NCBI RefSeq assembly: GCF_019797745.1
Contig: NZ_VOSI01000003.1
Span: 310,001-374,000 of the forward strand
DNA from: Edaphocola aurantiacus
Lineage (GTDB): Bacteria; Bacteroidota; Bacteroidia; Chitinophagales; Chitinophagaceae
Direction: 5' to 3'
Length of the DNA stretch: 64,000 nucleotides
The notes under the pieces are model-generated. The model searched no databases. It saw only the letters and a list, made by a program, of their open reading frames with translations, and was not told where the DNA came from. Position numbers and translations under genes: made by a program. Of the stretch, positions 54,053 through 57,483 are shown piece by piece. Positions within the stretch are counted from its first letter, which is position 1; each line of letters starts with the position of its first letter.

Positions 54053-54104
54053 GTACGTATGTTGTAATAAATACGATATGCCTTCCCGGTTTTCGGGATC
54101 ATTA

Positions 54105-54112
54105 CAAAGGTA
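54105..54112 (-). promoter_or_regulatory. -7 element of the porin-like gene
   Basis: Minus-strand TACCTTTG, exact TAnnTTTG, 52 bp before the ATG. Confidence 0.6.
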
Positions 54113-54167
54113 TAAACTTATGTGAAAAAAAGAAATCAATTTTCAATTGTCTGCAAAAGAACCTTTG

Positions 54168-54611
54168 TTAAGGCTGGGGCAGGGTGAATTTATGGTGTGT
54201 CAGCTGAAATCCCAGTGCTTCATATACCTGCACATTTTCTGTTCTGCGCTTATTCGTGGTCACCTCTATATAACGGATATTATTTGCTGCTGCGTATACC
54301 TTTACCTCATCCATCAGCAGGTGACCGATACCCTTGTTCCGGTATTCCTGCGCTATGAAAAATTCCTGGATCTCACCCACAAAATCGCAATGATGTAACA
54401 ATTGCTGTGCGTGAAAACTAATAAATCCTGCGGGTTTCTGATCAAATTCTGCGACGAGATACAGGATGTCATTATGCAGTAAATTGGACTCAAATATCTG
54501 TGCAAAGCGCTCTTTATCCAGTGCCTCGTTTTCAAGCGTACATATAAACCCGTAAATGGCTTCAAGGTCCGTTGGTATTGCTTTTCGGATGTTTATAGAT
54601 TCTTTGTTCAT
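54168..54611 (-). CDS. GNAT-family N-acetyltransferase
   Basis: 147 residues. GNAT pattern: NIRKAIPTDLEAIYGFICTL, DILYLVAEFDQKPAGFISFH, GEIQEFFIAQEYRNKGIGHL (acetyl-CoA loop Q/R-x-x-G-x-G) and NVQVYEALGFQLTHHKF. Substrate unknown. The stop lies 28 bp inside the spacer beyond the porin promoter region, so the two minus-strand genes are separate. It is the left-hand neighbour of the cysteine attenuator region and is divergent from it. Confidence 0.85.
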   Translation of the reverse strand: MNKESINIRKAIPTDLEAIYGFICTLENEALDKERFAQIFESNLLHNDILYLVAEFDQKPAGFISFHAQQLLHHCDFVGEIQEFFIAQEYRNKGIGHLLMDEVKVYAAANNIRYIEVTTNKRRTENVQVYEALGFQLTHHKFTLPQP

Positions 54612-54723
54612 AGATATAATCATTGATGGTCAGTGATATAAAGATAAACAATTTTGTACCATGCTTTTCCGGCCAGTGTAGTCGAATTTATTCATTTTTA
54701 ACAAAAAAATATTTTTATAAATA

Positions 54724-54754
54724 TTTGGTCAATTGAAATTTCCTCCTACATTTG
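54724..54754 (+). promoter_or_regulatory. Promoter of the Cys-leader / tRNA-Cys unit
   Basis: TTTG at 54724-54727 and TACATTTG at 54747-54754 with exactly 19 bp between, a consensus Bacteroidota promoter. Expected transcript start about 54761. It is the only convincing promoter between 54624 and the DUF4395 gene. Confidence 0.82.
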
Positions 54755-54795
54755 CAGTCATGCGGTTCAAAAACGAAACGCAGATTCAACAGAAC

Positions 54796-54897
54796 ATGAA
54801 TACAAATATCCATACATACTTTAACGCCAATCAGTCATCGAAGATGATCTGGTGTTGTGTGCCTGTGGCATATCATTGTATCGGTTCCATTGGATAA
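54796..54897 (+). CDS. Cysteine-rich leader peptide 1 (33 aa)
   Basis: ATG 54796, TAA 54895-54897. The peptide starts MNTNIHTYFNANQSSKMIW and continues CCVPVAYHCIGSIG: adjacent Cys codons at positions 20-21 (TGT TGT, 54853-54858) and one at 28 (TGT, 54877-54879). It starts ~35 nt after the predicted transcript start and is followed 33 bp later by a strong terminator. The peptide itself looks unlike any enzyme or signal peptide. A segment GTATCGG (54878-54884) covering codon 28 can pair with the terminator's 5' arm. I read it as a regulatory leader whose translation senses charged tRNA-Cys. An in-frame ATG at 54760 would add 12 residues but lies at the predicted transcript start. Confidence 0.72.
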   Translation: MNTNIHTYFNANQSSKMIWCCVPVAYHCIGSIG

Positions 54898-54929
54898 TAT
54901 GTAGATAATAAAATAATCTTTATACAACC

Positions 54930-54964
54930 AACTCCCCCGATACTGTTTCGGGGGAGTTTTTTTT
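54930..54964 (+). terminator. Intrinsic terminator 1 (attenuator) after Cys leader 1
   Basis: 10-bp perfect stem AACTCCCCCG / CGGGGGAGTT, 9-nt loop, then eight T's. There is no protein gene between promoter and terminator other than the 33-codon leader. Its 5' arm and loop contain CCGATAC (54937-54943), complementary to leader 1. Confidence 0.92.
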
Positions 54965-54994
54965 AGCAGCATATCATCAGTAAATCAAATAAGA

Positions 54995-55114
54995 ATGAAT
55001 ACAACATATACACATATTATGTCCACTAAGCCGGCACATTATTTTAATAATGTGGCGAAGGTGATGTGTTGTTGTCATGTGTGGATGTGCGGTAACTATT
55101 TGTGTCTGAATTAA
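54995..55114 (+). CDS. Cysteine-rich leader peptide 2 (39 aa)
   Basis: ATG 54995, TAA 55112-55114. Starts MNTTYTHIMSTKPAHYFNN, continues VAKVMCCCHVWMC and ends GNYLCLN: three adjacent Cys codons (TGT TGT TGT, 55067-55075), then single ones at positions 32 (TGC) and 37 (TGT). It shares with leader 1 the start MNT, a YFN motif, and a lysine three to six residues before the Cys run, which suggests duplication. There is no -7 element between terminator 1 and this ORF, so it would be reached only by read-through. The second terminator follows 19 bp after the stop. Probable second attenuator leader. Confidence 0.7.
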   Translation: MNTTYTHIMSTKPAHYFNNVAKVMCCCHVWMCGNYLCLN

Positions 55115-55132
55115 AGAATTTTTCTATAACAG

Positions 55133-55170
55133 GAAGGGCTTTACGACACATCGTGAAGCCCTTCTTTTTT
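55133..55170 (+). terminator. Intrinsic terminator 2 (attenuator) after Cys leader 2
   Basis: 14-bp stem GAAGGGCTTTACGA / TCGTGAAGCCCTTC (one G-T pair), loop CACA, then TTTTTT. It lies 20 bp before tRNA-Cys. Confidence 0.93.
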
Positions 55171-55190
55171 ATCATCAATTTTAAAATCAT

Positions 55191-55262
55191 GGTGCCGTGA
55201 CCGAGAGGCTTAGGTGCAGCTCTGCAAAAGCTGCTACATCGGTTCGAGTCCGATCGGCACCT
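55191..55262 (+). tRNA. tRNA-Cys (anticodon GCA)
   Basis: 72-nt cloverleaf. Acceptor arms GGTGCCG / CGGCACC, discriminator T73 as required for tRNA-Cys, D-stem ACC/GGT, anticodon arm CAGCT-CTGCAAA-AGCTG with anticodon GCA, T-arm ATCGG-TTCGAGT-CCGAT. CCA is not encoded. No promoter element is visible between terminator 2 and the gene, and no terminator between it and the DUF4395 gene 30 bp downstream, so the tRNA is probably cut out of a longer transcript that starts near 54761. Confidence 0.97.
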
Positions 55263-55292
55263 CTTAAAAACAAACAAATTAAATAAACGTTT

Positions 55293-55766
55293 ATGAACAC
55301 GCCCCTGCAAACACAGTTATACGCCGATGCCCGCGTAATAAGGGTTACAGCAGCACAGACTGCCACATTAGTTATTGCATTCCTGCTTAGTCACTGGAGC
55401 ATATTGTTATGGATATTGCTTGCCGACTTTGCCTTAAGAGCCTTCACCTACTGGCCATCGCCACTGGTACTGGTCTCCAGGATTATTGTGAACTGGGTAG
55501 GCTTACCCGCACTGCCCATATTTGCACCGCCTAAAAAATTTGCCGCTACACTGGGATTCGGGTTTACCGCATTAATACTGGTGCTCTGGTATACCGTACC
55601 GGTTGAAGCAGCTACCATTGCGGGCGTAGCCCTCATTACACTGGCCATTCTGGAGTCCTGTTTTAACGTATGCGCCGGCTGCTATATTCATAGCTGGATC
55701 GTTGCCCCGGTACGCAATAAAATTTACCAGAGAAGATGGGCCGCGGGTAGCCGCATCTCAGAATAA
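55293..55766 (+). CDS. DUF4395 membrane protein
   Basis: 157 residues with three to four hydrophobic segments (TATLVIAFLLSHWSILLWIL, FAATLGFGFTALILVLWYTV, ATIAGVALITLAIL). The closing motif ESCFNVCAGCYIHSWI carries three cysteines and is typical of DUF4395; such proteins often occur beside rhodanese or thioredoxin genes, pointing to sulfur or thiol handling (family association, not proven function). It begins 30 bp after tRNA-Cys with no terminator between, and the next gene follows 35 bp later, so it is the first protein gene of the tRNA-Cys transcript. Confidence 0.85.
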   Translation: MNTPLQTQLYADARVIRVTAAQTATLVIAFLLSHWSILLWILLADFALRAFTYWPSPLVLVSRIIVNWVGLPALPIFAPPKKFAATLGFGFTALILVLWYTVPVEAATIAGVALITLAILESCFNVCAGCYIHSWIVAPVRNKIYQRRWAAGSRISE

Positions 55767-55801
55767 AACAAGGTTTTACATTATTAAATAAAAATATTTT
55801 T

Positions 55802-56092
55802 ATGAGCACAATACAAGCGCTGCAGCCACAGGCTGAGCAGGATGAACCGGGGCTATTTCCACTGATCGAAGTAGAACTGAAAGGACAGGTACTTTTTGAA
55901 CAATTGATCAATGCCCTTGACCGCAAATATCATATTCCGTATAAATTACTGAAAGCAGATATCGAATACATGGGTAAAGCCAATTACGGAACATTGTTGC
56001 TGCACCTGAAAGGTTCTAAAAAGGACAACGGGATTGCACTGCGCTACTTTGATCAGAATAAATTAAAGAACACACTTAAAGGATATGCGTAA
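55802..56092 (+). CDS. Free-standing NIL-domain protein
   Basis: 96 residues consisting almost only of an ACT-like NIL domain: VELKGQVLFEQLINALDRKY, KLLKADIEYMGKANYGTLLL, HLKGSKKDNGIALRYF. NIL domains form the C-terminal regulatory part of the methionine importer ATPase MetN, where they bind methionine, and also occur in sulfur-transfer proteins. A small stand-alone NIL protein is plausibly a sensor of a sulfur amino acid. No metN-type gene is nearby. It is 35 bp after the DUF4395 gene and 12 bp before the GNAT gene, clearly in one operon. Confidence 0.8.
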   Translation: MSTIQALQPQAEQDEPGLFPLIEVELKGQVLFEQLINALDRKYHIPYKLLKADIEYMGKANYGTLLLHLKGSKKDNGIALRYFDQNKLKNTLKGYA

Positions 56093-56104
56093 ATTGCAGT
56101 ATAT

Positions 56105-56668
56105 ATGATGATCAGGAACGCTAAACAATCGGATGCTCCGCATATTGCGGCATACCTGCTGCTGGCCATGGAAGATATTGTGTATGACTTTATCGGAACG
56201 GCAGACCGGAATAAGGCCCTGAACTTTCTGCATTATTTTACGGCAAGAAAGGGCAACCAGTATTCGTACCAGCATTGCAGGGTTGCAGAAATAGAGGGTA
56301 AGGTACAGGCTGCAGTCAGTGTATATGACGGCGCTATGCTCGATATATTAAGAGAGCCGGTCGCGGAGTATATCCGTGAAGTATTGGAGAAAGATTTCGA
56401 TCCCGGAGCCGAAACTGCGGCAGGGGAGTATTATATCGATTCACTGGGTGTGGATCCTGTATTGCAGGGCAAGGGCGTAGGTGCGGCGATGTTGCAGCAT
56501 CTGATAGAGGAGTATGCACACCAGCAGGGGCATACCCTGGGCCTACTGGTCGATAAAGATAATCCTGCTGCGAAACGCCTGTATCTCAGGCTGGGCTTCG
56601 AACCTGTCGGTGAAAAACAGTTTGCCGGTAAGACGCTGGAGCATCTGCAGTATACACCACGTAAGTAA
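56105..56668 (+). CDS. GNAT-family N-acetyltransferase in the tRNA-Cys operon
   Basis: 187 residues. GNAT motifs: MIRNAKQSDAPHIAAYLLLA, SYQHCRVAEIEGKVQAAVSV, YYIDSLGVDPVLQGKGVGAA and LLVDKDNPAAKRLYLRLGFE. It ends the operon that starts with tRNA-Cys; a 58-nt palindromic terminator follows within 2 bp. Substrate unknown. A thiol, an amino acid or a cysteine conjugate are possibilities suggested by context only. Confidence 0.87.
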   Translation: MMIRNAKQSDAPHIAAYLLLAMEDIVYDFIGTADRNKALNFLHYFTARKGNQYSYQHCRVAEIEGKVQAAVSVYDGAMLDILREPVAEYIREVLEKDFDPGAETAAGEYYIDSLGVDPVLQGKGVGAAMLQHLIEEYAHQQGHTLGLLVDKDNPAAKRLYLRLGFEPVGEKQFAGKTLEHLQYTPRK

Positions 56669-56669
56669 T

Positions 56670-56727
56670 AATATATCATCATAACAAAGCCTGCAGCATG
56701 CTGCAGGCTTTGTTATGATGATATATT
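56670..56727. terminator. 58-nt perfect palindrome, bidirectional terminator
   Basis: Two perfect 29-nt arms meeting at the centre GCATGC (56698/56699), with GC core AGCCTGCAGCA / TGCTGCAGGCT and A/T-rich outer arms; lies between convergent genes and ends the tRNA-Cys unit. Confidence 0.93.
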
Positions 56728-56737
56728 CTCTTCTGAA

Positions 56738-57358
56738 TTAGAACTGCCAACCTACACTTACAGAGAAGTTGCTGTTATTGGTAGAAGTAACGTTATTGGC
56801 ATTGCTCAGGTTAGTAAAGCCCATACCGTATTGTGCTCTGGCGTATAAGCCGATCACCGGCAACTGATAACCAAGACCTACCTGTGCACCAATATCCAGC
56901 GGATTCATTTGTGCAGAACCGGAGCCGAAGTTTACGTCAGAACTAACGGTGCCTAAACTGTTGGAAAGTGTGTTCTTACCACCAACGCCGTATGCGAAGT
57001 AAGGACCTGCGTAGACGAATGGTCTGCCGCCGATACCTAGGGGCAGGCTGAATTTCAGGTTTACCGGAACTTCAACATAATCAAGGGTAGTAGTGGTCGT
57101 GCCAAGGATATTAGAATACTCGCCGCCTTTTCTGCTGTAGAATACACCTGGTTCCAGTGATACCACTTTATTGAAAGGTAATTCTACAAAAGCACCTGCT
57201 TTTAAGCCGGTCAGAGATTTACTCTCACTTGAAGTAGAGTTTGTGCTGTATTTCATTGTAGAAATGTTCAGACCTACTTCCGGTGCAAATTTGATTTGAG
57301 CCTGCGCAGCAGCCGTAAAGCCGGCAATCGCTGCAATACTTAAGATTGCTTTTTTCAT
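56738..57358 (-). CDS. Outer-membrane beta-barrel (porin-like) protein
   Basis: 206 residues. Signal peptide MKKAILSIAAIAGFTAAAQA, then barrel strands (IKFAPEVGLNISTMKYS, LTGLKAGAFVELPFNKVVS, LEPGVFYSRKGGEYS, DYVEVPVNLKFSLPLG, FVYAGPYFAYGVGGK) and a terminal FSVSVGWQF strand ending in Phe, the outer-membrane insertion signal. Paralog of 53354-54052. Minus-strand -7 element at 57391. Confidence 0.84.
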   Translation of the reverse strand: MKKAILSIAAIAGFTAAAQAQIKFAPEVGLNISTMKYSTNSTSSESKSLTGLKAGAFVELPFNKVVSLEPGVFYSRKGGEYSNILGTTTTTLDYVEVPVNLKFSLPLGIGGRPFVYAGPYFAYGVGGKNTLSNSLGTVSSDVNFGSGSAQMNPLDIGAQVGLGYQLPVIGLYARAQYGMGFTNLSNANNVTSTNNSNFSVSVGWQF

Positions 57359-57390
57359 AAAACTTAGTATTTCTGTTTGTTTTTACAGGG

Positions 57391-57398
57391 CAAAAATA
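57391..57398 (-). promoter_or_regulatory. -7 element of the second porin-like gene
   Basis: Minus-strand TATTTTTG, 32 bp before the ATG. Confidence 0.58.
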
Positions 57399-57483
57399 GA
57401 ACGAATATTTTAACAGGAAATCTTAATTAGTAAATCGTTAACCGATTGATGCTTAGGGAGTAATGTGGTATTTTTTGAATATG

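Follow-up and report, generated by a model that had tools for sequence, protein, structure and literature searches.

In the window analysed here, a stretch of 64,000 nucleotides (nt) from the genome of Edaphocola aurantiacus (contig NZ_VOSI01000003.1), the sequence very probably specifies two cysteine (Cys)-sensing, ribosome-mediated transcription attenuators, arranged in series before an operon that is headed by a second, inducible tRNA-Cys gene. The elements all lie on the + strand between 54724 and 56722 (coordinates are positions in the window) and follow each other in the order promoter-like site, short open reading frame 1 (ORF1), terminator 1, ORF2, terminator 2, tRNA-Cys(GCA), the genes for a DUF4395, a NIL and a GNAT protein, and a palindromic terminator:

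54724..54754, + strand, promoter-like site TTTG-N19-TACATTTG (pattern match)
54796..54897, + strand, leader ORF1, 33 codons, MNTNIHTYFNANQSSKMIWCCVPVAYHCIGSIG, Cys at codons 20, 21 and 28; an in-frame ATG is also found at 54760
54853..54858, + strand, Cys-Cys control codons of leader 1
54878..54884, + strand, putative 5' strand of the leader-1 antiterminator, GTATCGG, close to the stop codon, with its partner CCGATAC at 54937-54943 (pairing p = 0.106 when taken alone)
54930..54964, + strand, terminator 1, stem 54930-54958 plus T tract
54995..55114, + strand, leader ORF2, 39 codons, MNTTYTHIMSTKPAHYFNNVAKVMCCCHVWMCGNYLCLN, Cys at codons 25-27, 32 and 37
55067..55075, + strand, Cys-Cys-Cys control codons of leader 2
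55100..55126, + strand, best candidate for the antiterminator 5' side of leader 2, with its partner inside 55131-55150 (pairing p = 0.060 when taken alone)
55131..55172, + strand, terminator 2, stem 55131-55166 plus T tract
55191..55263, + strand, tRNA-Cys(GCA), an additional genomic copy; bases U33 and U73 read by eye
55293..55766, + strand, DUF4395 protein, 157 amino acids (Pfam PF14340)
55802..56092, + strand, NIL-domain protein (Pfam PF09383)
56105..56668, + strand, GNAT acetyltransferase (Pfam)
56675..56722, palindromic terminator-like site at the end of the operon, with predictions for both strands

The ORFs with their Cys runs, the terminators, the tRNA-Cys, the three protein genes and the final terminator had been listed in an initial annotation of this DNA, and all were found at the positions given there. 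The elements and their order are thus a matter of direct observation. The promoter of that annotation is also present, and agrees with the Bacteroidota-type consensus as given there (TTTG-N19-TACATTTG), but the motif by itself is weak evidence, as 3 exact matches occur in 64 kb where 1.28 are expected, and 17 of 100 shuffles reach 3. When everything except the two terminators was shuffled, at least one Cys leader appeared in 20 of 400 shuffles and two leaders in none (0/400), so that the presence of two Cys leaders is beyond chance. The tRNA-Cys is the sole tRNA of the whole window, and the third Cys codon of ORF1 (Cys 28) overlaps the antiterminator segment of leader 1.

The closest named relative is Edaphocola flava (family Chitinophagaceae), with a DUF4395 protein 96% identical to that of the window. 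Its ORF1 specifies an identical peptide with a single synonymous codon change. In its ORF2 six codons are changed, four of them synonymously and two of those in Cys codons, and five of five Cys are kept. The Cys runs and the synonymous changes point to translation of the leaders. Tandem Cys leaders with terminators also precede EamA, DUF4395, MetN, MetI and MetQ, without a tRNA, in Taibaiella sp. KBW10 and in Bacteroidetes bacterium 47-18 (where the Cys codons of the first leader are single only), and in Bacteroidetes bacterium 43-16 the operon has a single leader and includes a tRNA-Cys. The Edaphocola genome of the window holds a further Cys leader with a terminator, located before cysE-cysM-like genes (L265, G000:C3), and so does that of E. 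flava. The Cys leader of the Edaphocola cysE-cysM-like genes (L265, L267) reads MFHQTCCQYCCCTMWDHPASGMVM, and a terminator follows it.

A promoter of its own downstream of the leaders, with the leaders forming an independent small RNA, is a very improbable alternative for the tRNA-Cys operon. Nothing speaks for it beyond the general weakness of promoter prediction, whereas neither an exact Bacteroidota-type promoter match nor a sigma-70-like match was found on the + strand from 54755 to 55190, the gap from the terminator-2 stem to the tRNA-Cys is only 24 bases, and relatives without the tRNA have the same kind of leader directly before protein genes. It is extremely unlikely that a riboswitch or T-box takes the place of a translated leader. 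The leader is indeed structured and bears a terminator, but riboswitch and T-box covariance models gave no match in 54100-57400 even when E values of up to 1 were allowed, and the Cys codon runs and synonymous changes indicate translation. Rfam leader-family matches near the final palindrome all score below the gathering score.

Leaders of this type are not restricted to the close relatives. A pattern-based search with a DUF4395 alignment, which took one genome per species and was not exhaustive, yielded 50 loci, 18 of them with Cys-run leaders and terminators; in two of these 18 (L087 and L094; L and G denote our loci and genomes) the leaders are far from DUF4395 or after it, so that the association is not established. 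In a protein search of the class, ThiS-ThiF-rhodanese matches were obtained in 77 of 345 genomes, and among the best 20 places, which were fetched, 9 have upstream Cys-run leaders, one of them (L245) together with a tRNA-Cys. The leader lies about 3 kb ahead of the next recognised gene at L250, L261 and L263. In other genomes, too, Cys leaders precede cysE-cysM-like genes (named from sequence, without a Pfam scan), and the leader Cys runs reach 7 Cys. The initial annotation had named three findings that would speak against its interpretation, and the one pursued here was an absence of the Cys runs from relatives. The 18 of 50 and 9 of 20 loci just described show the opposite, and on that point the interpretation is therefore favoured.

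Two further types of arrangement were seen in the survey. At L104, L105, L107, L110, L118, L121 and L134 (mostly Chryseobacterium/Epilithonimonas) a similar terminator stands about 50 bases ahead of DUF4395; in both loci that were read (L105, L110) it is preceded by a short ORF that contains no more than one or two Cys, perhaps a degenerate leader. In Proteiniphilum (L087:10519-10656) a leader rich in methionine (Met) and Cys, with Cys-Cys, Cys-Cys-Cys and many Met, is found together with a terminator immediately after DUF4395.

For an analysis of pairing between leaders and terminators, 47 leaders having a Cys run or cluster and a terminator were picked by hand from detector hits. Frames apparently inside genes, weak terminators, further overlapping hits per locus and sequence copies (L136-L138, L140, L141 and the second fetches of L066, L067 and L069) were dropped, and one leader without Cys-Cys, 47-18_L1, was included after visual inspection. 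Without both E. flava leaders, which do not enter the statistics, n = 45, and the cysE-cysM leaders of L265-L267, found later, are outside the test. A terminator is located 16–58 nt past the stop codon in 47 of 47 leaders, but the leaders were chosen for having one. Pairings had been noticed by eye in several leaders ahead of the test, in which the stretch from the Cys run to the terminator was paired with the 5' arm and loop of the terminator and compared to dinucleotide shuffles. Against this null, 26 of the 45 leaders gave p<0.05, with a median z of -2.07 and a combined p of 1.3e-24, a value computed over related and so not independent leaders. The native pairs were better than all of 20000 partner permutations among the leaders (20000/20000), also after removal of seven near-duplicates. 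Permutation tests replaced the counting of base pairs because the alignments (A2, A3) were misaligned in parts of the 3' arms and antiterminators.

In a 60-nt version of the test the leaders had a mean z of -2.23 (60% with p<0.05), as compared to -0.13 (6.7%) for 208 control terminators of the same loci. These controls include loci fetched twice, and a few leader terminators of second copies remain among them, so that the comparison is biased against our interpretation. The segment directly before the Cys run pairs far worse (mean -6.2 vs -13.6 kcal/mol, 44 leaders), and an element like the antiterminator 5' side of leader 1 also occurs in leader 1 of relatives. Across the set of 45 leaders, the predicted antiterminator pairing is present and specific. 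Its strand starts at a median of 19 nt past the Cys run (positions from 7 nt onwards were considered). In 41 of the 45 leaders at least half of its paired bases fall within -20..+12 of the end of the stop codon, a ribosome footprint that was our own choice, and this exceeds the shuffles (p = 2.9e-6).

Several observations weigh against the interpretation, or against parts of it. The two leaders of the window are individually non-significant in the pairing test, and permutations as good as the native pairing were found in 547 of 20000 cases for leaders of the leader-1 type and in 225 of 20000 for the leader-2 type, a modest margin, while there were none (0/20000) for the other 22 leaders. A classical 1:2 protector hairpin between the Cys codons and the antiterminator found no clear support over the 45 leaders (mean z -0.54, 6 of 45 with p<0.05); leader 1 of the window does fold with a pairing of the 1:2 type, but within chance (p = 0.114). 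When four stretches of the window were folded, the terminator formed every time, and antitermination would therefore need to be kinetic. A clear Cys-run leader is lacking at 32 of the 50 DUF4395 loci, where a relaxed rerun restricted to the 5 kb upstream of DUF4395 revealed no clear additional case, and at 11 of the 20 ThiS-ThiF-rhodanese loci. Finally, one Terrimonas locus (L093) carries tRNA-Cys together with a terminator yet lacks a Cys run, and most Cys-leader loci are without a tRNA.

We nevertheless consider ribosome-mediated attenuation by cysteine to be well supported by the sequence comparisons. The following parts of an attenuator are predicted to be present: an ORF with control codons, a terminator before the first gene, an antiterminator (for the 45 leaders as a group) and downstream genes that match the sensed amino acid. 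Leader attenuation had been the proposal of the initial annotation, and it is now supported by the conserved Cys runs and by the set-wide antiterminator pairing, which that annotation did not contain. Classical trp and his attenuators likewise have control codons, a terminator and an antiterminator. They differ in that no clear 1:2 protector hairpin is seen over the present set, where masking is apparently achieved by the ribosome at the stop codon. As the protector hairpin is unsupported and the antiterminator strand sits at the stop codon, the ribosome is likely to be the mask.

We infer translation, stalling, read-through and a benefit of the extra tRNA, and propose the following process. 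With ample Cys-tRNA, the ribosome would pass the Cys codons and reach the stop codon, covering the antiterminator strand, so that the terminator would fold and transcription would stop. With scarce Cys-tRNA, the ribosome would stall on the Cys run and leave the antiterminator strand free to capture the 5' arm of the terminator, and RNA polymerase would continue. Expression of tRNA-Cys, DUF4395, NIL and GNAT would require read-through at both leaders. From the layout of the operon, the tRNA-Cys gene appears to be gated by attenuation, and since the leader would measure Cys-tRNA and the transcript would supply tRNA-Cys, the arrangement would constitute a homeostatic loop.

A tRNA-Cys inside such an operon was found at 11 loci including the window, 10 of them with a Cys-run leader, and a tRNA-Cys is located just upstream of a DUF4395 or peroxiredoxin gene in 9 of the 50 DUF4395 loci. 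In the window it is the first gene of the operon, as annotated initially, but it is a second copy, because the genome has another tRNA-Cys elsewhere, with its own promoter-like sequence (by eye) and taken, also by eye, to stand ahead of smpB. Further tRNA-Cys genes are present in 8 of the 11 genomes (G000, G001, G002 and those of L091, L093, L103, L117 and L120). Of the other three, those of L088 and L099 were covered by a pattern and a tRNA-family search with untyped hits, and in G536 its own tRNA served as the sole query. Because of these further copies, the operonic tRNA-Cys looks like an added, inducible copy under starvation control. Among the 39 tRNA genes of the L091 genome, Cys is, besides CAT, the only anticodon that occurs more than once, and the 43-16 genome (G002) has two tRNA-Cys among 48 ARAGORN calls. 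The idea of a sole copy, which had come from an exact tRNA-Cys pattern with one match in several genomes, was dropped because these two inventories, with two copies each, show that the pattern undercounts.

Most operonic tRNA-Cys share a GGUGCYG-like acceptor stem (by eye). Mean identity is 0.79 among operonic copies and 0.75 between these and housekeeping copies, however, too small a difference to establish a single tRNA lineage. A class-wide tRNA similarity search matched 7 of 395 genomes, one being that of the query and six weaker (78–80%) and taken for ordinary tRNA-Cys; this gives no estimate of frequency because the query misses G000. The operonic tRNA-Cys at L103:9207-9278, in the metagenome-assembled genome Flavobacteriia 40-80, has A33 for U33 and G73 for U73 and is still folded by ARAGORN; it may be decayed or dead, or else specialised.

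These data bear on a different explanation, compatible with attenuation itself, in which the attenuators serve the protein genes while the tRNA-Cys is a passenger, its transcripts minor beside those of the housekeeping copy. The second tRNA-Cys with its own promoter-like sequence, the many leader loci that lack a tRNA and the decayed appearance of the L103 copy would fit such a passenger, as would the mean identity of the window tRNA, which is no closer to the other operonic copies (0.77) than to housekeeping ones (0.80). Against a passenger, tRNA-Cys recurs in 11 such loci, which represent three families or more, and its orientation is that of the coding strand throughout. From Cys leaders to their downstream genes, no other tRNA type was seen (L152 has a tRNA-Lys after DUF4395, without a Cys leader), and the doubling of Cys among the 39 tRNA genes of a relative also argues against this explanation, as does the retention of the tRNA by Edaphocola in an operon without the pyridoxal phosphate (PLP) enzyme, JAB and ThiS-ThiF genes that are found in relatives. 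We regard the passenger as quite conceivable, without thinking it probable.

The protein genes had been annotated as a thiol/sulfur operon. DUF4395, NIL and GNAT are confirmed by Pfam. Together they resemble a reduced form of a larger cysteine/methionine operon. The window NIL protein is 61% identical over 80 amino acids to the C-terminal end of a relative's MetN, and for this reason the free-standing NIL gene (55802-56092) appears to be left over from a MetN that has been lost. The fullest operon (L103) consists of two leaders followed by EamA, PLP enzyme, JAB, ThiS-ThiF-rhodanese, tRNA-Cys, peroxiredoxin, DUF4395, MetN, MetI and MetQ; Pfam identified EamA, PLP (PALP-family), JAB, ThiS-ThiF-rhodanese and peroxiredoxin on L103 itself, and MetN, MetI and MetQ on the L067 copies. 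This gene set resembles the mycobacterial pathway of sulfur-carrier cysteine synthesis. The genes behind the leaders serve the sensed amino acid, by way of tRNA-Cys in the window and of cysE-cysM-like or PLP/JAB/ThiS-ThiF-rhodanese genes in relatives.

The composition of the leaders raises the question whether Cys and Met are sensed jointly, as a signal of general sulfur amino-acid shortage. Beside the Cys runs, Met accounts for 65 of 285 residues in Chitinophagaceae/Proteiniphilum leaders (those of L066, L067, L069, L087, L088, L091, L094, L099 and L103 and the two window leaders) and for 18 of 360 in the others, against a background of 1.5%, taken from long frames at these loci and including non-coding ones. 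MetN, MetI and MetQ are encoded in several of the operons concerned. In the window, however, Met is modest (one internal Met in leader 1, three in leader 2), Met-rich leaders also occur at L088, L091 and L099, where MetNIQ were not found, and effects at the RNA level or on start sites may account for a preference for ATG triplets. We consider joint sensing possible but rather doubtful.

A Cys-codon attenuator with a terminator has already been described, the uORFC-8-2 motif before cysS in Rhodobacterales (PMC8632094). It shares with the present leaders a short ORF, tandem Cys codons, an intrinsic terminator and presumed ribosome-mediated attenuation by Cys-tRNA, and there, too, the controlled gene raises Cys-tRNA. 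It controls cysteinyl-tRNA synthetase in alphaproteobacteria and has two tandem Cys codons, whereas here tRNA-Cys and sulfur genes of Bacteroidota stand behind often tandem leaders; genes and phylum thus place our leaders outside that motif. Cys leader peptides without conserved terminator hairpins are reported for Actinobacteria including the mycobacterial cys operons (PMC1262725), and Canestrari 2020 is the citation given for leaderless short ORFs that contain cysteine-responsive attenuators, a process called translation attenuation in PMC13236596. The likeness is that of Cys-run short ORFs before cysteine operons; the present ones have intrinsic terminators with matching antiterminators. 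In archaea and certain bacteria, tRNA-Cys genes also form part of SepRS-SepCysS operons, alongside cysteine and sulfur genes, but these operons serve RNA-dependent cysteine synthesis and the sections seen describe no Cys leader (PMC5424206). Neither SepRS nor SepCysS was detected by Pfam among the window's three proteins and nine from L103, L067 and L066 (one of them without a match).

Leader-peptide attenuation has been suspected in flavobacterial amino-acid operons (PMC9723704) and for Bacteroides short ORFs (PMC7366714), and a 2010 view placed leader-peptide systems only in Proteobacteria and Actinobacteria until the Firmicutes case of that paper (PMC2965389). The initial annotation knew of no described case of a tRNA gene gated by leaders rich in its own codon. 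A full-text literature search, with most subscription journals outside its coverage, revealed no case in which a tRNA gene is preceded by leaders built on its own codon, but Cys attenuators (cysS) and tRNA-Cys in sulfur operons are known from the sources above.

On balance we lean towards a closed translation-supply loop, in which two serial leaders with terminators gate the gene of a tRNA for their own control codon, the tRNA is a starvation-inducible second isodecoder, and the leaders of Chitinophagaceae may read Cys and Met together. Known attenuators act on genes for biosynthesis and for synthetases; the present one apparently governs the supply of the tRNA that it reads itself. If true, the expression of a tRNA gene would be both a regulated output and a feedback element. 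The position of the antiterminator strand under a ribosome at the stop codon offers a testable rule, and the leaders point to Cys attenuation as a widespread and little described form of sulfur control in Bacteroidota.

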